Part shown: one piece after another, positions 14,683-62,675 of the stretch
Numbering within the stretch: the first letter of the stretch is position 1
Layout: each line of letters begins with the position of its first letter
Assembly: GCA_021770925.1 (NCBI GenBank)
Contig: JAETPY010000001.1
Coordinates: 17,145-81,144 of the forward strand
Reading direction: 5' to 3'
Source of the DNA: Erysipelotrichaceae bacterium
GTDB taxonomy: Bacteria; Bacillota_I; Bacilli_A; Erysipelotrichales; Coprobacillaceae
Length of the DNA: 64,000 bases
Translations under genes and position numbers: made by a program
Notes under the pieces: model-generated
Databases searched by the model: none
The model's input: the letters and a program-made list of their open reading frames with translations, nothing else
Told to the model about the DNA's origin: nothing

Positions 14683-15945
14683 ATGAAAAAAAGTTATCAG
14701 CTTTTGGGATATACATTACATGTAATTCCAACTAGGAAATTCAAAAATATAACAATGTCTTTAAAACTTGAGAATAAATTAACGAGAGAAAACGTTACCA
14801 AAAGATCGTTACTGGCATTTATGTTAACAGGTGGAACTAAGGAATATCCATCTACTCAAGCTCTATCTAGTCATTTAGAAGATTTGTATGGAATGAACTT
14901 TGGTACTAATTTAGCGACTAAAGGATTATCACAAGTATTAAATATTTCTAGTGTCTGCATTAATGAAGCTTTTTTGCCATATCAGGAAGATTTATTAAAA
15001 CAACAAATTAAATTATTTAATGATGTTCTTTATAATCCTAATGTTAAAGATGGCAAATTTGATGAACAAACTTTTAATATTAAGAAAAAAGAGTTAAGAG
15101 AACGTTTAATTGTTCAAAATGATGATAAGTTTATGTATGGGTTGAATCAGTTATTTATAAATATGGGAGAAGGGGGATTTTTATCAATTTGTAATAATGG
15201 GTACATTGAAGAACTAGATAAGATAACTAATGAAGAATTGTATCAATATTTATTAGAATGTGTTAAAAATGATGTTAAACATTTATATGTTGTTGGAGAT
15301 GTGGATGAGAGTATTGTTGAGGTTTTTAAAGAAAATTTAAGTTTTGATACTAATCCGCCTTCAAATGAGGTTGTAACTAATTTTAACTCAACAAAAAAAG
15401 AAGTCCTTGAAGTAATTGAAAAACAAGACATAACCCAGGCTAAGTTGAATTTAGGCTTTGTTGTGGATTGTAACTTTTTAGATGAAGGTACTTATGCAAT
15501 GACAGTTTTTAATGCTATTTTTGGTGGTTTTTCACAATCAAGATTATTTAAAGTTGTTAGAGAAGAACATAGCCTTTGTTATTATATTTCCTCTAGTTAT
15601 GGCGCTTTTAGTGGAATCATGACAGTTAATGCAGGAATTGAGGGAAGCAATTATCAAAAGGCTAAAGAACTTATTATGGATGAATTGGCTAAAATTCAAA
15701 ATGGTGATTTTAGTGAGGATGAAATTAATTTAGCAAAATTAATGTTAAAAAGTTCACTTATAAAAACGAAAGATGAGCCAATGAGTTTAATTGCATTAGC
15801 TTATAATCGTGATTTAACTAATAAACAAGAAACTAATGATGAATATCTTGAAAATATTTTAAAAGTAACAAAAGAAGAAATTATCGCAGCAAGTAAAAAG
15901 GTTTATTTAGATACTATTTTCTTGCTTACAGGGAGTGATAAATAA
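14683..15945 (+). CDS. M16-family protein, YmfF-like (no HxxEH)
   Basis: M16 fold sequence (VFNAIFGGFSQSRLFKVVREEHSLCYYISS) without a zinc motif; paired with the next gene. Confidence 0.85.
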   Translation: MKKSYQLLGYTLHVIPTRKFKNITMSLKLENKLTRENVTKRSLLAFMLTGGTKEYPSTQALSSHLEDLYGMNFGTNLATKGLSQVLNISSVCINEAFLPYQEDLLKQQIKLFNDVLYNPNVKDGKFDEQTFNIKKKELRERLIVQNDDKFMYGLNQLFINMGEGGFLSICNNGYIEELDKITNEELYQYLLECVKNDVKHLYVVGDVDESIVEVFKENLSFDTNPPSNEVVTNFNSTKKEVLEVIEKQDITQAKLNLGFVVDCNFLDEGTYAMTVFNAIFGGFSQSRLFKVVREEHSLCYYISSSYGAFSGIMTVNAGIEGSNYQKAKELIMDELAKIQNGDFSEDEINLAKLMLKSSLIKTKDEPMSLIALAYNRDLTNKQETNDEYLENILKVTKEEIIAASKKVYLDTIFLLTGSDK

Positions 15946-17225
15946 TGGAAAAAATATATTTTGAAACTTTAAAAGAAACCTTATATCATGAAAAGATGGA
16001 TAATGGTCTAGAAGTTTATTTACTTCCAAAACCTGGTTTTGAAAAAACCTATGGCTTGTTTTCAACCAGATTTGGAGCAATCGATACTAAGTTTGTACCA
16101 ATTGATCAAGATCAAATGATTAAGGTAGAAGATGGAATTGCTCATTTTCTTGAACATAAAATGTTTGATATGAATGGCAGTGATGCTTCAGATGAATTTG
16201 CAAAATTAGGAGCAAGTACCAACGCCTTTACTTCATCAAGTAGAACTGCTTATTTGTTTAGTACAACTACTAATGAATATCCATGCATTGAATTATTATT
16301 AGATTTTGTTCAAAAGTTAGAAATCACTCCAGAAAGTGTTGAAAAAGAGAAAGGAATCATTGGTCAAGAAATCAAAATGTACGATGATGATCCAGATTGG
16401 CAGGTTTATTTTGGTTCGATTCAAAATCTATATAATAATCATCCTGTCGCTGTTGATATTGCAGGAACAGTAGAAACTGTTAATAATACGACTAAAGAAA
16501 TGTTGGAGCTTTGTTATAACACTTTTTATCATCCAAGTAATATGATGATTTTTATTGTTGGAAACATTGAGGCTAATAAAGCAATGTCAGTAATTAAAGA
16601 AAACCAGTCTAAAAAGAATTTTAATTTTGCTAAAAAGATTGTTTGTCAGAAAAATATTGAACCTTGTAACATCAAGACTAAGGAAAATATTTTAACTATG
16701 GATGTTGAAATGAATAAAATCATTGTTTCAATTAAAATAAATGAGATTTTAGATGATCCTAAATTAAAGATCAAACGAGAATTGGCAATTAATCTGTTGT
16801 TTGATTTATTATTTTCAAAGAGTGCCAAATTATATAATGAGTGGTTAAATAAGGGAATAATAAATGATTCTTTTAGTGCCAATTTTACTCAAGAACGTGA
16901 TTATGCTTTTATTCAGATAGGTTGTGATTGTGATGATTATGAGACATTAAAAGAACATATATTTGATTTGATTAGAAATTTGAAGAATATTGAAATTTCT
17001 AAAAATGATTTTGAAAGAATTAAAAAGAAAAATATCGGACTATTTATAAATTTGTTTAATGGTCCTGAAAGTATTGCAAATTTATTTAGCCGTTATTATT
17101 TTGAAGGAACGATTGCATTAGACTTAATTGATGAAATTGCTGAGATTTCACTTGAGGATATTTATGATATGTTTAAATATTTTGATTTAGAATATACTAG
17201 TGTATGTATTGTTAAAAAAAAGTAA
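15945..17225 (+). CDS. M16-family zinc metallopeptidase, YmfH-like
   Basis: HFLEH zinc motif (GIAHFLEHKMFD), ASTNAFTSSSRTAYLF. Confidence 0.9.
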   Translation: MEKIYFETLKETLYHEKMDNGLEVYLLPKPGFEKTYGLFSTRFGAIDTKFVPIDQDQMIKVEDGIAHFLEHKMFDMNGSDASDEFAKLGASTNAFTSSSRTAYLFSTTTNEYPCIELLLDFVQKLEITPESVEKEKGIIGQEIKMYDDDPDWQVYFGSIQNLYNNHPVAVDIAGTVETVNNTTKEMLELCYNTFYHPSNMMIFIVGNIEANKAMSVIKENQSKKNFNFAKKIVCQKNIEPCNIKTKENILTMDVEMNKIIVSIKINEILDDPKLKIKRELAINLLFDLLFSKSAKLYNEWLNKGIINDSFSANFTQERDYAFIQIGCDCDDYETLKEHIFDLIRNLKNIEISKNDFERIKKKNIGLFINLFNGPESIANLFSRYYFEGTIALDLIDEIAEISLEDIYDMFKYFDLEYTSVCIVKKK

Positions 17226-17256
17226 AATTATGTTAAATAACGTGGGTGAATAATAG

Positions 17257-17284
17257 TTGACACTTGTCATGCTTATGTTATAAT
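17257..17284 (+). promoter_or_regulatory. Consensus vegetative promoter for the 6S-like RNA
   Basis: TTGACA (17257-17262), 16-nt spacer, TATAAT (17279-17284). Confidence 0.85.
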
Positions 17285-17290
17285 AACGTT

Positions 17291-17445
17291 GGTTAGAGAG
17301 TAAATAAATTTCCACATCATAGATAAGGGAACCTGATCTAAATCACGGTGTTGAAAACCTATCATAGAATAGGGATCCTAAAGTGTATTTAAAGGTGCCC
17401 ACCTGTATAAAACAGGGAAATATCTAAAGCTCTCTACCTTTTTTT
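17291..17445 (+). ncRNA. ssrS: Candidate 6S RNA
   Basis: Closing stem GGTTAGAGAG/CTCTCTACC then T7; rod stems GGGAACCT/AGGTGCCC and AAATCAC/GTGTATTT; apical CCTAT/ATAGG; small CCTGT/ACAGG hairpin on the 3' side of a central bubble. This is 6S-like architecture. No covariance search was run. Confidence 0.7.
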
Positions 17446-17462
17446 ATATAAGGAGAAAGATG

Positions 17463-17693
17463 ATGAGCAATATAGATCCAAAATTGATTGCAAGAATTAA
17501 TGAGTTAGCTAAAAAGAAAAAAGATGGTATAATTACTCCCGCTGAATTGAAAGAACAGAAAAAGTTGAGAGAAGAATATTTGAAAGCATTTAGAAATGGT
17601 TTTAAACAACAATTGATGGGAATTAAAGTAGTTGATGCTAAAGGAAATGATATAACTCCACAGAAATTAAAGGATGAAAAATTAAAAAATTAA
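17463..17693 (+). CDS. DUF896 protein, YnzC-like
   Basis: IARINELAKKKKDGIITPAELKEQKKLREEYLKAFR. Confidence 0.92.
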   Translation: MSNIDPKLIARINELAKKKKDGIITPAELKEQKKLREEYLKAFRNGFKQQLMGIKVVDAKGNDITPQKLKDEKLKN

Positions 17694-17781
17694 AGATATT
17701 TGCAGAAACTTATTCAAATTTAGGCTTTTTTGTGTATAATAAGAATAAGTTTTTTATGTGCAAAAGGAGAATTAGAAATAA

Positions 17782-19758
17782 ATGGAAACGTCAAGTTTAT
17801 CAATTGCAGCTATTCGTGCTCTAGGTATTGATACTATCAATAAAGCTAATTCTGGACATCCTGGAATGGTTTTAGGTTCAGCACCAGCTGTCTATACATT
17901 ATTTACTAAAGAAATGAATTTTTATCATAAACAGTCAAAGTGGTTTAATCGTGATCGATTTGTTTTAGCCTCTGGTCATGCTTCAGCATTATTATATGCT
18001 GTATTACATCTATCTGGATATCAGATTTCAATGGATGATTTAAAAAACTTTAGACAATGGGGTTCAATAACACCAGGACATCCTGAATGTAATCTTACGG
18101 ATGGTGTAGATGCTTCATCTGGACCACTTGGACAGGGAATTCCGATGGCAGCAGGAATGGCTTTAGCTGAAAAATTTTTAGCTGCTAAATACAATCGTGA
18201 GAATTACGATATTGTTGATCACTATACATTTGCATTATGTGGTGATGGTGATATGCAAGAAGGGGTGACTTATGAAGCTGCATCACTTGCAGGACATTTG
18301 TCACTAGGAAAATTAATTGTTTTATATGATGCTAATCAGGTTACTCTTGATGGTCCTTTGTCAATGTCATTTAGTGAAGATGTAAAAAAACGATATGAAG
18401 CAATTGGATGGCAGGTAATCAATGTCAAAGATGGTAACGATATTAATGAGATTCAAAAAGCGATTCGTAAAGGTAAAAAGGAACTGTATAAACCTACTTT
18501 AATTATTGTTAATACAGTTATTGGATATGGTTCAAATAATCAGGGAACAAATAAAGTTCACGGAAGTCCATTAGGCAGAGAAGATGGAAGAAACGCAAAA
18601 TTGTCTTATGGATTTGACCATGAGGAATTTTATGTACCTGAAGAAGTTTATGAGGATTTTGCTAATAGTTGTGTTAAACGTGGTAAAAATCGTTATAATA
18701 AATGGAATCGTTTATTTAAAGATTATGAAAAAGCTTTTCCAGAATTAGCTCATGAACTAAATAAGGCAATCGAGGGAAAATATTCTTTAGATATTGATGA
18801 AATTACTAAAAAGTATATAGCTGGATTTAGTGATGCAACAAGGAATACTTCATTAGAATTGATTCAGGAGACCGCAAGACAAAATCCTACATTTATGTCT
18901 GGAACTGCTGATTTAGCATGTTCAACTAAAACTGAGATTGCTAATGAAAAAGCTTTTAGCGTTGAAAATTATGATGGACGTAATTTAGTTTTTGGAATTC
19001 GTGAATTTGCGATGGTAGCGATGATGAACGGAATAGCTTTACATACAGGAATTAAAGTCTCTGCTGGTGGTTTTTTAGTTTTCTCTGATTATTTTAAAGC
19101 AGCTTTAAGAATGTCATGTTTAATGGAATTACCAATTATTATTCCTTTATCACATGATTCTATTGCTGTTGGCGAAGATGGACCAACACATCAGCCGGTT
19201 GAACAATTAGCAATGCTTCGATCTTTACCTAATATTCAGGTCTTAAGACCAGCAGATGCAATTGAAACTGCTGCAGCATGGAAGTTAGCAATCGAGTCAA
19301 CTAAAAAACCAACTGCGTTGATTTTAACTAGACAAAATGTAACAACGATGGAAAATACTTCATGTGAAGGTGTTAGTAAAGGAGCTTATATCGTTGGTAA
19401 AGAAGTTGAACGTCTTGATGCAATAATTATTGCTACAGGTAGTGAAGTTAATCTAGCAATGAAAGCTAAAGCAGCTCTATTAAATGAGAATATTGATGTT
19501 CGTGTTATTTCTATGCCATCGATGGAATTATTTGAGGAACAAGAAGAGGCATATAAGGAATCTGTTCTTCCTCGTAATATGAGAGCACGTCTAGTGATTG
19601 AAATGGCTAGTGATTTTGGATGGCATAAATATGCTGGAATTGACGGGAGAGTAATGTCAGTAAGTACATTTGGTTCTAGTGCTCCAGCTAATGTGGTAAT
19701 TGAGAATTATGGTTTTACAGTAGAAAATATTATTAAAAATATTAAAGAAGTTTTATAA
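17782..19758 (+). CDS. tkt: Transketolase
   Basis: NKANSGHPGMVLGSAP, GDGDMQEGVTYEAAS, GEDGPTHQPVEQLAMLR. Confidence 0.97.
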   Translation: METSSLSIAAIRALGIDTINKANSGHPGMVLGSAPAVYTLFTKEMNFYHKQSKWFNRDRFVLASGHASALLYAVLHLSGYQISMDDLKNFRQWGSITPGHPECNLTDGVDASSGPLGQGIPMAAGMALAEKFLAAKYNRENYDIVDHYTFALCGDGDMQEGVTYEAASLAGHLSLGKLIVLYDANQVTLDGPLSMSFSEDVKKRYEAIGWQVINVKDGNDINEIQKAIRKGKKELYKPTLIIVNTVIGYGSNNQGTNKVHGSPLGREDGRNAKLSYGFDHEEFYVPEEVYEDFANSCVKRGKNRYNKWNRLFKDYEKAFPELAHELNKAIEGKYSLDIDEITKKYIAGFSDATRNTSLELIQETARQNPTFMSGTADLACSTKTEIANEKAFSVENYDGRNLVFGIREFAMVAMMNGIALHTGIKVSAGGFLVFSDYFKAALRMSCLMELPIIIPLSHDSIAVGEDGPTHQPVEQLAMLRSLPNIQVLRPADAIETAAAWKLAIESTKKPTALILTRQNVTTMENTSCEGVSKGAYIVGKEVERLDAIIIATGSEVNLAMKAKAALLNENIDVRVISMPSMELFEEQEEAYKESVLPRNMRARLVIEMASDFGWHKYAGIDGRVMSVSTFGSSAPANVVIENYGFTVENIIKNIKEVL

Positions 19759-57356: not shown

Positions 57357-57381
57357 AAAGATTATCAAAAGATAATCTTTA
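57357..57381 (-). terminator. Rho-independent terminator
   Basis: AAAGATTATC-AAAA-GATAATCTTT. Confidence 0.65.
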
Positions 57382-57718
57382 AAAATTAATACCTTTAACT
57401 TCAATATTGACTTTAATGTTTTTTATTCCTGTCATTTCAAAACAGCTTTGAGCAATTTTATTCTGTAATGAAGTAGTTGCAGCTGTTACATTTAATCCAT
57501 AATCAATTAAAACAGCTACATCAACAATTACCTGGTTATTCTTATTAAGACGTACTGTTACAGGTCCACTGCCAGGCATTGGAATCATATTTCCTTCAAA
57601 ATCTACACCATCAATTGACTCAACAGCTTTAACAACGATTGACTGAAAAACATTTAAACCAATATTTAAAGCTCCTAAATTTGTTTCTTTTTCTACTGAA
57701 TAATATTCTTGACTCATA
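57379..57718 (-). CDS. Asp23/Gls24 family protein, YqhY-like
   Basis: VFQSIVVKAVESIDGVDFEG; start probably at MSQEYYSVEKE rather than the track start at 57771. Confidence 0.9.
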
Positions 57719-57767
57719 ATAAATGCTCCTTTATATACCTTTATTGTATATAAAATCAAGAGAAAAT

Positions 57768-58238
57768 TCAAGCCTCACTGATAAACTTAACTTCTACCTG
57801 ATACTCATTTTTGGTTTCTTCCATAATTGTTTTGATTATGTTATTAGCGTCATTACCACTACCATCCTTCTTATCTACAACCACCTTGATAGTTTTGTTT
57901 TCTACTTCTACGAATGCATTTTTAAAACCAGCTTCATTTACAGTTTTAGTAATTTTTGCTTCTAATGCAGCTGTTTCTTTAGCTTCGCTAATTGTTGCTA
58001 AAGCTGATGCTATTTTATCACTATCGCTTTCGCTAGAAGCAATAATTGCATTATTTTCACTAATTAGATCTTCTCGTTCTTTATCTAAATTTTTTTGTAG
58101 TGCTTCAATTTGTGACACTTCCTGATCATTTACAGCTACTTCATTAGCAGTATTTTCAGGTGGTAAGAGAATATAATAAATTGATAGTACTAAAATTAGG
58201 CTAAATAGGGTTAAAAAAGTAATTGCTTGTCTATTCAT
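57768..58238 (-). CDS. spoIIIAH: SpoIIIAH-like protein
   Basis: N-terminal TM then ring-building-motif region VNEAGFKNAFVEVENKTIKVVVDKKDGSGNDANNIIKTIMEET; between efp and asp23. Confidence 0.85.
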   Translation of the reverse strand: MNRQAITFLTLFSLILVLSIYYILLPPENTANEVAVNDQEVSQIEALQKNLDKEREDLISENNAIIASSESDSDKIASALATISEAKETAALEAKITKTVNEAGFKNAFVEVENKTIKVVVDKKDGSGNDANNIIKTIMEETKNEYQVEVKFISEA

Positions 58239-58292: not shown

Positions 58293-58321
58293 AAAAAACA
58301 CTAGTTTAAAACTAGTGTTAA
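58293..58321 (-). terminator. Rho-independent terminator after efp
   Basis: AACACTAGTTT-TAAACTAGTGTT, T-run on - strand. Confidence 0.75.
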
Positions 58322-58875
58322 GCTCTACCCTGATATTTACCATCAACTGTATTTACAATAACAATTTCCCCTTCAGAAATGAATAATGGCACTTTGATTT
58401 GATATCCTGTTTCAATAGTAGCGTTTTTAGTAGCTCCAGTTGCGGTATCACCTTTAACAGCAGGTTCTGTTTCAATAATCTTAAATGGGACATTAATAGG
58501 TAAAGAAACACCTAATACTTCCCCTTCATAGCTAGTTACTTCAACTTCATCACTTTCTTTTAGAAAATTAATTTCCCATTTTAAATTATCTGCAGGAATT
58601 TCAATTTGTTCATAAGTTTCATTATCCATGAAAACTAATGCATCTCCAGAATTATAAAGATATTGCATCTTATTTTTATCAATATGTGCTTTTTTTACTT
58701 TATCATTTCCACCAAAAGTAACTTCTGTAGTTGATCCAGATCTCAAATTTTTCATTTTAATTCTAATATTAGCAGCTGCACGAGCTGTTTTATTATGTGA
58801 ATAGTCTAATACAACATATAGGTTACCTTCATATTCAAAAGTAATTCCTGGTCTTAAATCTCCAACACTTATCAT
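58318..58875 (-). CDS. efp: Elongation factor P (Arg at position 32)
   Basis: MISVGDLRPGITFEYEGNLYVVLDYSHNKTARAAANIRIKMKNLRSG; full-length three-domain EF-P. Confidence 0.96.
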   Translation of the reverse strand: MISVGDLRPGITFEYEGNLYVVLDYSHNKTARAAANIRIKMKNLRSGSTTEVTFGGNDKVKKAHIDKNKMQYLYNSGDALVFMDNETYEQIEIPADNLKWEINFLKESDEVEVTSYEGEVLGVSLPINVPFKIIETEPAVKGDTATGATKNATIETGYQIKVPLFISEGEIVIVNTVDGKYQGRA

Positions 58876-58951
58876 TTTAAAAATCTCCTTATTTGTAATT
58901 TACTTTGTGATTATATCAAAAATCATTGATAAAGTTAAGTGATTTTACTAA

Positions 58952-59326
58952 TTATTGATATTCAAATGAGGATATTATCAAAGTTTCTATATTTATTTCT
59001 AAATTAAAACTATATTCTTGTTCATTTTTTTTAACGTCTGTTACAATATAATAATAACTTCCCAAATCATCGACTCTATAATCAATAACATAATCGCCTA
59101 CACTTATCATATTACTAATTAAAATATCATTAGCAATCATCTCTTTATAATATCTCAATATACTAAGCTCAACCAGGCGTTCTTCATTAAGCTTTTTTAC
59201 TCTATCAATTGCTTTACTATTTTCAATTATATTAGTAAAAAATACTCCGATATTTAATACTAAAACTAAAAAAATTATTAATACCAGCTGTAAAATAGAG
59301 CCTTGTGCTTTACTGACCTGATTCAT
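58952..59326 (-). CDS. ComGG-position protein
   Basis: Last gene of the comG operon; N-terminal hydrophobic helix. Confidence 0.6.
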   Translation of the reverse strand: MNQVSKAQGSILQLVLIIFLVLVLNIGVFFTNIIENSKAIDRVKKLNEERLVELSILRYYKEMIANDILISNMISVGDYVIDYRVDDLGSYYYIVTDVKKNEQEYSFNLEINIETLIISSFEYQ

Positions 59327-59774
59327 TTTCTATTTCTCCTGAGTCTTCTATCATTTCATAATTGATTGCAATCAAATAATAGAAATCATTTTTACCATCA
59401 TTTAAATGCATATAAATATTCTCGTTCCTAGTAAAAAAATCTAAGTCTTCAACATCTCTAATAATAATATCAAAACCAGGTTCTTTTATAACTCTTTTTT
59501 TGTGTAAAGATATTGTGCATGATTTATCGTTTTCATCTTTAAAAGATAACTTTTCACCAACTGTAATACTTTTTGAAGTATATAAAATTTTAGCTACCTG
59601 CTTTGCCCCAATAGCATAGAAACTTGTATTTGCTGCTGTTTTATCTTTATAAGATACTATTTTAACAATTGGCACAATATTTAAAACGATCAATAAGCAA
59701 ATTGAAAGTGAAAATAAAACTTCAATCAGTGTAAAACCTCGTTTATTGATGAATCTAAATCTTTTGTCCGCCAT
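59310..59774 (-). CDS. comGF: ComGF-like competence pseudopilus protein
   Basis: Type IV prepilin-like GFTLIEVLFSLSICLLIV; position in operon. Confidence 0.75.
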   Translation of the reverse strand: MADKRFRFINKRGFTLIEVLFSLSICLLIVLNIVPIVKIVSYKDKTAANTSFYAIGAKQVAKILYTSKSITVGEKLSFKDENDKSCTISLHKKRVIKEPGFDIIIRDVEDLDFFTRNENIYMHLNDGKNDFYYLIAINYEMIEDSGEIENESGQ

Positions 59775-59968
59775 AATTCTAACTCCTTATTATTTTGAAG
59801 TTGTAAATACTCTTGATAATCATTATTAATTTTATGAAAATGTCGCATACCACTATTATAACAACTGAAAATCACTACTATAACGGTTATAAAGATGCTA
59901 AATGCTAATAAACTTTCAATCAAAGTCATTCCTTTAATCTTTAACATAAAATGCCCCGCTGCCAACAT
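59726..59968 (-). CDS. ComGE-like minor pseudopilin
   Basis: GMTLIESLLAFSIFITVIVVIF; operon position. Confidence 0.65.
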   Translation of the reverse strand: MLAAGHFMLKIKGMTLIESLLAFSIFITVIVVIFSCYNSGMRHFHKINNDYQEYLQLQNNKELELWRTKDLDSSINEVLH

Positions 59969-60356
59969 TAAAAATAATACTTTTGCATATCTCCTGACTA
60001 CATATATTTAGATGATTTCCACTATTAATATTTCCATTTTTATTAAAATACAATTCAAATACATCTTGAATATAATAATTACTATCTAATTCAATACCAT
60101 GTTTTCCTTGAAAATCATAACTAATCTGGTTATCACTAATTAAAATATTAATTTTTTCATGATTCAACAAAGCTTTAGTTTTGGCTTCCTGTAATAAACC
60201 AATAATTTCATTACACTGTTGATCAATAGATAAATGCGGTGATAATGTGATTGCATAATTAAGAGTAAACATACTCAGGATAATAATTATACTAATAGAA
60301 AAAATCACTTCAATTAATGTAAAACCATTATTATCTTGCATAAGCTTGACCATCAC
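59934..60356 (-). CDS. comGD: ComGD-like minor pseudopilin
   Basis: NGFTLIEVIFSISIIIILSMFTLNY; operon position. Confidence 0.8.
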   Translation of the reverse strand: MMVKLMQDNNGFTLIEVIFSISIIIILSMFTLNYAITLSPHLSIDQQCNEIIGLLQEAKTKALLNHEKINILISDNQISYDFQGKHGIELDSNYYIQDVFELYFNKNGNINSGNHLNICSQEICKSIIFNVGSGAFYVKD

Positions 60357-60645
60357 TAATCGTAATTGTTAAACCACTAGGACATGTTACTTGTTTTTCT
60401 GTCAAATAAGGATGATCACCAGATGTTAAATCTGAAATACTAGCTGGTAAATATCCTTTTTCAATCTCATAAAGAACGATTTGAGAATTAACTACTTCTA
60501 CTTGAGCATCACAGCTTTTTTCTTTAACTACCCTGTTTTTACTTGTAACATTTGGTATAACGAGTAATAAAATAACTAAAATAACTGAGATACAAAAAAT
60601 CATTTCAATTAAAGTAAATCCTTTTTGCTTCATCTTTTCCTCCAT
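60331..60645 (-). CDS. comGC: Major competence pseudopilin ComGC
   Basis: KGFTLIEMIFCISVILVILLLVIPNV. Confidence 0.9.
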   Translation of the reverse strand: MEEKMKQKGFTLIEMIFCISVILVILLLVIPNVTSKNRVVKEKSCDAQVEVVNSQIVLYEIEKGYLPASISDLTSGDHPYLTEKQVTCPSGLTITISDGQAYAR

Positions 60646-60694
60646 TCTGTGATATCATAATCAGTATCACATTAAATTTACTTATTATTTCTAC

Positions 60695-61696
60695 TTATAA
60701 ATTACCAATAATTGACATCATCGGAATAACAATTGAAACATAAACTAAAATAACAAAACCTGCAGTAAAACAATAAATTAACGGAACTATAATCTTAACT
60801 ATTTTCATAATCTTAAAATGTAAAGTCTCAAGAGAAATCTTTAAATAGTTATCAAGAGATTTATTAATACAATTATCGTGCATCAACAATTTAAAACTAG
60901 CAGTAAATAATGGTTCAAAATAATTAAACTGGCAAACTGTATTTTCTAGAGATTCACCATTTAAAATTTTTAGATATATTTCATATATTAGCATTTTAAT
61001 ATCACTATCATTAATTTGCTGATAAAGCATAATGATTATATCTGTTGTATCATAACCGTTGATCAATAATTCATTATAATATAGAGCAAATTTAATTGAA
61101 TAATATTTTTGAATCATATTTTGAATGATCCATATATGATTTACTAAAAAATCTATTAATTGATAATACTGTTTTTTTACAGCATAGATAGCAATAAAAC
61201 AAATACTACTAAAAAATATTAAAATAATAATTATAAAAAATGGTATGATTTTAAATAACTTAAACATTATTTTTGTTATAAAATTAGGCTCAATATTAAA
61301 TTCTATAAAAAGCTGCATTATTGATGGTAATAAGGCATAAACAATAAATAACGAAAACATCATTAAAAAAATAATTAATAAAACCGGATATGTTAATTCC
61401 TTTTTTAATTTTCTGAATGTCTCATCTCTTGTTTTACAAATATCTAAACTTTGGATAAGTGCTTTTGAAAGATTATTTTTAATTCTAAAAAATTTAAAAT
61501 ATTCAATAAATGTTTGATTAAAATCACATTCGATTATTGCCTCATCAAATGTTAAACCATTATTTAACTTTTCTCTTAATTTTTCAATTCGATTATCATG
61601 ATAAATAAAACTACAAATATCTAAAATATCCTGAATCAAATAACCTTGTTGTAAAAAATAAGCAACATTCTCTAAAAAACGATATTCCTCATTCAT
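60695..61696 (-). CDS. comGB: ComGB, type II/IV secretion membrane platform protein
   Basis: GspF-like repeats, KKELTYPVLLIIFLMMFSLFIVYALLPSI. Confidence 0.88.
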   Translation of the reverse strand: MNEEYRFLENVAYFLQQGYLIQDILDICSFIYHDNRIEKLREKLNNGLTFDEAIIECDFNQTFIEYFKFFRIKNNLSKALIQSLDICKTRDETFRKLKKELTYPVLLIIFLMMFSLFIVYALLPSIMQLFIEFNIEPNFITKIMFKLFKIIPFFIIIILIFFSSICFIAIYAVKKQYYQLIDFLVNHIWIIQNMIQKYYSIKFALYYNELLINGYDTTDIIIMLYQQINDSDIKMLIYEIYLKILNGESLENTVCQFNYFEPLFTASFKLLMHDNCINKSLDNYLKISLETLHFKIMKIVKIIVPLIYCFTAGFVILVYVSIVIPMMSIIGNL

Positions 61697-62675
61697 AAAA
61701 AATCCCTGCTACTTGTTGATAATTAACCAAGTTGTTTTCTAATAATATTTTAGCATTATCCTTAAATGTATTATAACTAACAGACTGGTTATTAAAAAAA
61801 TCACAAATTTTACTACGATCTAAATATTCAGGTAAAACAAGCGGGGTGTGCTTATTTTTATGATACAGCATTTTTTGTGACATCACTCCCACCAAAACAT
61901 CTTCAACATCTATCTTTAATACCCCCAAATTCAAAAGACGTCTAATTGTAGTTAAACAATTACTAGAATGAATTGTTGTTAATACTAAGTGACCGGTTAA
62001 AGCACAAGTTATTGCTAATCTTGCTGTTTGTTCATCACGTATTTCCCCAATCATAATTATATCAGGATCATGCCGAAGAATTTGTTTTAGAGAATTATTG
62101 TATGTAATTCCTAACTTTTCATTAATCTGGATTTGTAAACAATAAGATTTTTTAATTTCTATGGGATCTTCTAAAGTAACAATATTTTTTTGATAGCTTT
62201 GATTTATTGTATCCAGCAAAGTATAAAGAGTAGTAGATTTGCCTGAACCTGTTGCCCCGCTTACGATAAATAATCCTGAATCCAAAGTTACTATTTGTTT
62301 TAAAAAATCTCTTGTATCTTTAAACAGAGTAAGTTCATCTAATGATAATTTATGATGATTATTTAATATTCTAATCACAATACTGTCAATATCTTTACCA
62401 GGTAAACTAGAAACTCGAAGATAGTATATTCTATCATCATATAGATAATTCAAATGTCCGGTTTGAGGTCTTAATTGATAATTAATATCAATATTAGATT
62501 TAAAACGAATATAATTCATTAATTTAATTCCTTGTTTATATTCTAAAGCATCATAGATTACTAAATCACCATGTTGTCTAAATGAAATAGTACATTGTTG
62601 TTTTAATAACAAATGAATATCAGATGTTTTATAAGTAATAGCATGGTTTATTATTTTTTCAAATAGATCATTCAT
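61689..62675 (-). CDS. comGA: ComGA, type II/IV secretion ATPase
   Basis: VSGATGSGKSTTLYTLLD; LEDPIEI; IGEIRDEQTARLAITCALTGHLVLTTIHS. Confidence 0.95.
   Translation of the reverse strand: MNDLFEKIINHAITYKTSDIHLLLKQQCTISFRQHGDLVIYDALEYKQGIKLMNYIRFKSNIDINYQLRPQTGHLNYLYDDRIYYLRVSSLPGKDIDSIVIRILNNHHKLSLDELTLFKDTRDFLKQIVTLDSGLFIVSGATGSGKSTTLYTLLDTINQSYQKNIVTLEDPIEIKKSYCLQIQINEKLGITYNNSLKQILRHDPDIIMIGEIRDEQTARLAITCALTGHLVLTTIHSSNCLTTIRRLLNLGVLKIDVEDVLVGVMSQKMLYHKNKHTPLVLPEYLDRSKICDFFNNQSVSYNTFKDNAKILLENNLVNYQQVAGIFYE

Follow-up and report, generated by a model that had tools for sequence, protein, structure and literature searches.

In Bacillus subtilis and Staphylococcus aureus, the elongation factor EF-P is of the 5-aminopentanol type, with Lys32 at the tip of a Pro30-Gly-Lys32 loop. 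Arg-tip EF-Ps are found in the EarP bacteria (P. aeruginosa, P. putida, Neisseria), where they lack a proline two residues before the tip and are rhamnosylated. Previously, Witzky et al. demonstrated that 5-aminopentanolylation in B. subtilis strictly requires ynbB, with a contribution from yaaO, and the genetic screen placed gsaB, ynbB, yaaO, yfkA and ywlG upstream of ymfI, with ymfF and ymfH unmentioned (PMC5885033). The K32R mutation of efp brought back swarming in a B. subtilis ymfI mutant (PMC5885033), and the unmodified K34R variant of E. coli EF-P, with its PGKG-like loop, had only about 20% activity (PMC6544042). E. coli EfpL (YeiP) functions with an unmodified Arg tip on a prolonged loop that has Pro three residues before the Arg (PMC11611912). 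In both M. genitalium and M. pneumoniae EF-P is reportedly essential, and known EF-P modification enzymes are missing from the mollicutes analysed (PMC4014445). YmfF and YmfH were described as proteases cleaving lanthipeptide precursors in vitro (PMC8960859) and were studied as putative spore-membrane proteases (PMC13393411).

The stretch of DNA analysed here (64,000 nucleotides, hereafter the window) derives from a Thomasclavelia-like genome of the Erysipelotrichales and encodes an EF-P of 185 residues (Table 1), which scores 240.4 bits against TIGR00038 (cut-off 185.8) and contains all three EF-P Pfam domains (EFP_N, EFP and Elong-fact-P_C). The protein shares fold and length with the B. subtilis and S. 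aureus factors. It is 50.5% identical to S. aureus EF-P (PDB 6rk3) and aligns with it without a gap over residues 1-184, as the original prediction had claimed for the B. subtilis-type N-terminus. The loop reads HNKTARAAAN (HNKTARAAANIRIK), and because the 6rk3 alignment has no gaps, the Arg32 at its tip corresponds to Lys32, which bears out the predicted replacement at the modification site. With Thr-Ala-Arg instead of Pro30-Gly-Lys32, the window EF-P is not a Lys-tip EF-P of the 5-aminopentanol type; residue 29 is Lys, and the TAR loop is an Arg tip without Pro at the -2 position. The latter feature is shared with the EarP-type EF-Ps, but the window EF-P belongs to a Bacilli clade. The T. 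thermophilus EF-P (1ueb) also has an Arg tip without Pro (HQKLGRGGA) in a loop that aligns ungapped with that of the window, although it represents a distant lineage with 41.8% identity. Membership of the EfpL family, which likewise has an Arg tip, was rejected, since the score is 138.8 bits against a cut-off of 216, and the window loop is ungapped to 6rk3 and of canonical length, unlike that of EfpL.

Table 1. Coordinates in the window of efp, its neighbourhood and the ymfF/ymfH region
Feature	Position	Strand	Basis
YmfF homologue, M16 peptidase family	14683..15945	+	NF047422, 415 bits, cut-off 285
YmfH homologue, M16 peptidase family	15945..17225	+	NF047421, 518 bits, cut-off 250
Interval before tkt; no ymfI	17226..17781	+	no ORF of at least 100 aa
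Transketolase gene tkt, next gene after ymfH	17782-19758		TIGR00232
YqhY/Asp23-like gene, native efp neighbourhood	57379..57771	-	named by resemblance
SpoIIIAH-like gene, downstream neighbour marking the native efp locus	57768..58238	-	adjoins native efp in most relatives; named by resemblance
Terminator-like hairpin and T run just past the efp stop	58297..58319	-	consensus scan
efp, EF-P of 185 aa, loop HNKTARAAAN	58318..58875	-	TIGR00038; Pfam; ungapped 6rk3 alignment
Arg32 codon, CGT (modified Lys32 position in B. subtilis)	58780..58782	-	direct sequence reading; invariant 33/33
Promoter-like site upstream of efp (TTAACT, 17, TATAAT, extended -10)	58910..58938	-	consensus scan only
comG-like pseudopilus operon upstream of efp	58952..62675	-	named by resemblance

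The gene occupies the native efp locus, whose order (comG operon, efp, in some cases spoIIIAH, yqhY, nusB, xseA) recurs in almost every locus read from the family. In the window, the YqhY/Asp23-like gene is followed by nusB, xseA, ispA, dxs, recN and spoIVB, all named by resemblance; this is presumably the same chromosomal neighbourhood as that of efp in B. subtilis. The consensus scan returned two terminator-like hairpins in the region against 0.1 in shuffled sequences. The comG operon has the orientation of efp in the window and most relatives; T. saccharogumia and VE202-01, along with one Thomasclavelia MAG, have it the other way round (L086, L089, L097). In the assembly of Clostridiales bacterium VE202-01 (G007), the native efp is split by a frameshift (L097:6262-6820), which may be real or a sequencing error.

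We compared the window with 60 relatives and aligned the native-locus EF-Ps of 33 family members. Arg32 is invariant in all 33 of them, within the motif NKTAR in 29 and NKQGR in four, and is therefore no sequencing accident. The window EF-P and its counterpart in Thomasclavelia saccharogumia DSM 17460 (G003) share 99% identity. A third native loop type, QNKQGRLSGKYMVK, which keeps Arg32, was seen in Massilimicrobiota and a relative (L098, L100, L051). EF-Ps of sister families have NKTAM, with Met32, or NKTAR. In a tree of 171 EF-P sequences, from which the loop columns had been removed and whose supports are SH-aLRT values from quick searches, the 66 Arg/Met-tip EF-Ps of the family, its sister families and the code-4 genomes form one clade (SH-aLRT 99); mapping the loops onto a phylogeny had been proposed with the original prediction. 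We call the code-4 families Mycoplasma-like solely because TGA is read as a sense codon. Their EF-Ps share the Arg tip without Pro (SKSGR, SKQGR), but the residues around the Arg differ from the window loop and their genomes are reduced. The Arg32 tip is an old trait of the whole lineage. An ancestral Pro30-Gly-Lys32-Gly loop would have turned into an Arg or Met tip lacking the proline in the Erysipelotrichales and the Mycoplasma-like families. A clade reaching to such genomes, together with close sister species with and without a Lys-tip EF-P, offers natural tests of the need for tip modification.

We consider it likely that the window EF-P is the unmodified native-locus factor of this Arg/Met-tip lineage, that the Lys32 EF-P of relatives belongs to a separate, laterally acquired cassette absent here, and that YmfF and YmfH act elsewhere. 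Alternatively, a hitherto unknown enzyme, such as a glycosyltransferase unrelated to EarP, would modify Arg32. The strict invariance of Arg32 and the rhamnosylated Arg tips of EarP bacteria would fit such an enzyme, as would the presence of rmlC (224 bits), which represents at least part of dTDP-rhamnose synthesis; a rhamnose donor may therefore exist for other purposes. However, EarP (PF10093) was found in none of the 60 relatives and none of 392 genomes of the phylum, a weak negative as no control genome known to carry EarP was included, sister families within the same clade have Met32, which is unable to take lysine or arginine chemistry, the reduced code-4 genomes share the Arg tip, and no known EF-P modification enzymes occur in the mollicutes analysed (PMC4014445). 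Furthermore, no gene was seen travelling with the native efp in the way that ynbB travels with the Lys32 EF-P gene (efpK, see below). We regard an unknown modifier of Arg32 as unlikely. EpmA (TIGR00462) had no match over the cut-off in the 60 relatives, the matches of about 210 bits being presumably lysyl-tRNA synthetase. The PPP codons of ValRS are kept in the own genome and 56 of the 60 relatives, so that relief of stalling is still needed where the sole EF-P is tipped with Arg or Met. From these EarP and EpmA results, the retained ValRS codons, the mollicute EF-Ps and the precedent of EfpL, we infer the modification state and the ribosomal mechanism of the window EF-P, which probably works with an unmodified Arg32 tip. 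The swarming restored by K32R in B. subtilis also speaks for this reading, and the low activity of E. coli K34R speaks against it. Among the three options of the original prediction, those of an EF-P without modification and of a different YmfF/YmfH substrate survive, and Arg chemistry of the EarP type, for which the searches above lacked a positive control, is unsupported.

A Lys32 EF-P with the loop HVKPGKGAAILKTK or a near variant was detected in 27 of the 60 relatives, beside or instead of the native EF-P, and shares 37-38% identity with that of the window. In these 27 genomes, its gene is arranged as (pnuC-like)-efpK-SDR-ynbB. The short-chain dehydrogenase (SDR) gene directly follows efpK in all 27, and a gene of the YnbB family (PF06838) lies within a few kb in 25, the exceptions being G013, where the contig breaks, and G058, where ynbB is about 35 kb away. 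We name the SDR only FabG/YmfI-like because FabG-type models score higher (210 bits) than YmfI (165 bits). Two genomes have a YaaO-like decarboxylase inside the cassette cluster. A SCIFF-type radical SAM maturase, together with a YaaO-like decarboxylase, lies between the SDR gene and ynbB in two Thomasclavelia genomes (L109:10940-12325, L107), and most cassettes have upstream of efpK a homologue of the PnuC-like nicotinamide riboside transporter with an extra N-terminal part (e.g. L108:9548-10774). The efp-SDR-ynbB operon points to genes that may form the minimal set of the 5-aminopentanol pathway, which is still poorly resolved.

The cassette measures about 4.0-4.4 kb and is 92.5-96% identical between genomes of three genera, with homology ending at its edges, whereas the native efp genes of the same genome pairs are 76-85% identical, except for the same-genus pair G012-G028. 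This difference argues that the cassette moves laterally, and it appears to have been passed between bacteria. Within a genus, cassettes occupy different contexts. A search of the cassette ends for terminal repeats, as a sign of a transposon, gave only AT-rich matches at chance level. A further family of Bacilli (f12; G127, G145) likewise has the order efp-SDR-ynbB, which in G145 lies near a spoIIIAH-like gene at what is apparently the native efp locus, and the Lys32 EF-Ps of the Erysipelotrichales nest with the f12 EF-Ps in the tree (91% support in the topology-test analysis). Duplication of efp in place as the source of the Lys32 copy was rejected by AU tests (p-AU 0.0005, and 0.0065 with Mycoplasma-like rows added). 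Within the order, the 5-aminopentanol-type Lys32 EF-P is a protein apart, carried on a laterally transferred cassette. We lean towards the view that EF-P and the enzymes decorating it travel among gut Bacilli as one discrete unit of about 4 kb, which supplies hosts living on an unmodified Arg/Met tip with an additional, self-sufficient EF-P of the Lys-tip type, and that the window species is naturally free of this unit. In one complete relative (G013; L114, G013:C129), the cassette Lys32 EF-P is the only EF-P, and the native efp and yqhY were undetected.

The second, PGKG-type EF-P that could have overturned the original prediction was found in five sister species and not in the own genome, where a single EF-P was detected in an assembly of 89% completeness. 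With these sister species and this completeness in mind, one might suppose that a Lys32 EF-P and its modification genes are hidden in an assembly gap. Such a gap is improbable, since efpK and ynbB would both have to be missed (the best match to YnbB in the own genome is 19.7 bits, against at least 490 bits for true members), and both are absent from T. saccharogumia (G003, 100% complete), whose EF-P is nearly identical to that of the window, as well as from G007 (96%) and G004 (95%). The own genome and these three cassette-free sisters retain YmfF/YmfH.

The co-occurrence of these genes separates what product names had joined. Leaving aside G009, G019 and G056, in which no EF-P was detected (G019 has ynbB), a strong ynbB match was present in 27/27 relatives with a Lys32 EF-P and 0/30 without, and the two agreed in 7/7 independent pairs on the native EF-P tree (p 0.016). 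In the class sample outside the Erysipelotrichales, the further genomes with ynbB all have a Lys tip and most Lys-tip genomes lack ynbB, so the rule is one-directional. YmfF, on the other hand, was found in 21/27 relatives with and 26/30 without a Lys32 EF-P (p 0.49). Its presence is independent of Lys32 EF-P and YnbB in the Erysipelotrichales. YmfI (NF047420, cut-off 238 bits) was dropped as a marker gene, as no relative passed the cut-off, cassette carriers included; the best match in the own genome (211 bits) is the FabG of the fab cluster, which scores 335 bits as FabG. Next to ymfH in the window stands tkt, in the place that ymfI has in B. subtilis.

The homologs of YmfF and YmfH are indeed present, as predicted. 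Their supposed tie to 5-aminopentanol finds backing in the NCBIfam product names, but neither in the co-occurrence with Lys32 EF-P nor in the paper on the B. subtilis screen. Those names, and the location of the pair and efp in the same 64-kb window, would favour a role of YmfF/YmfH in processing or modifying the Arg32 EF-P, which we nevertheless hold to be highly improbable: YmfF is missing in four genomes with only an Arg/Met-tip EF-P (G015, G017, G037, G049) and occurs with either EF-P type, and the two proteins are M16-type proteases with the lanthipeptide and spore-membrane connections already mentioned. YmfF and YmfH form a protease pair that persists regardless of the type of EF-P and most likely acts on another target, and the premise of a conflict between Arg32 and their presence is weak. 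Since YnbB and not YmfF/YmfH tracks the Lys32 EF-P, the label 'EF-P modification-associated' should be revised for these two proteases.

It is scarcely credible that the native Arg EF-P is decaying into a relic while other factors such as ABCF ATPases do the work, as the frameshift in G007 and the lack of a native copy in G013 might suggest, given that the native EF-P is full-length with invariant R32 in 33 family members, that almost all 30 cassette-free relatives have an Arg/Met-tip protein as their sole EF-P, and that ValRS for the most part keeps its PPP codons. In the wider class sample, other Arg tips (SAR) and Asn tips (SAN) lie elsewhere on the EF-P tree, all without Pro at -2, in agreement with the description from other bacteria (PMC6544042). 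The Asn-tip EF-Ps (HVKSANSMA) were observed in two Bacilli families of this sample (L185, L190).
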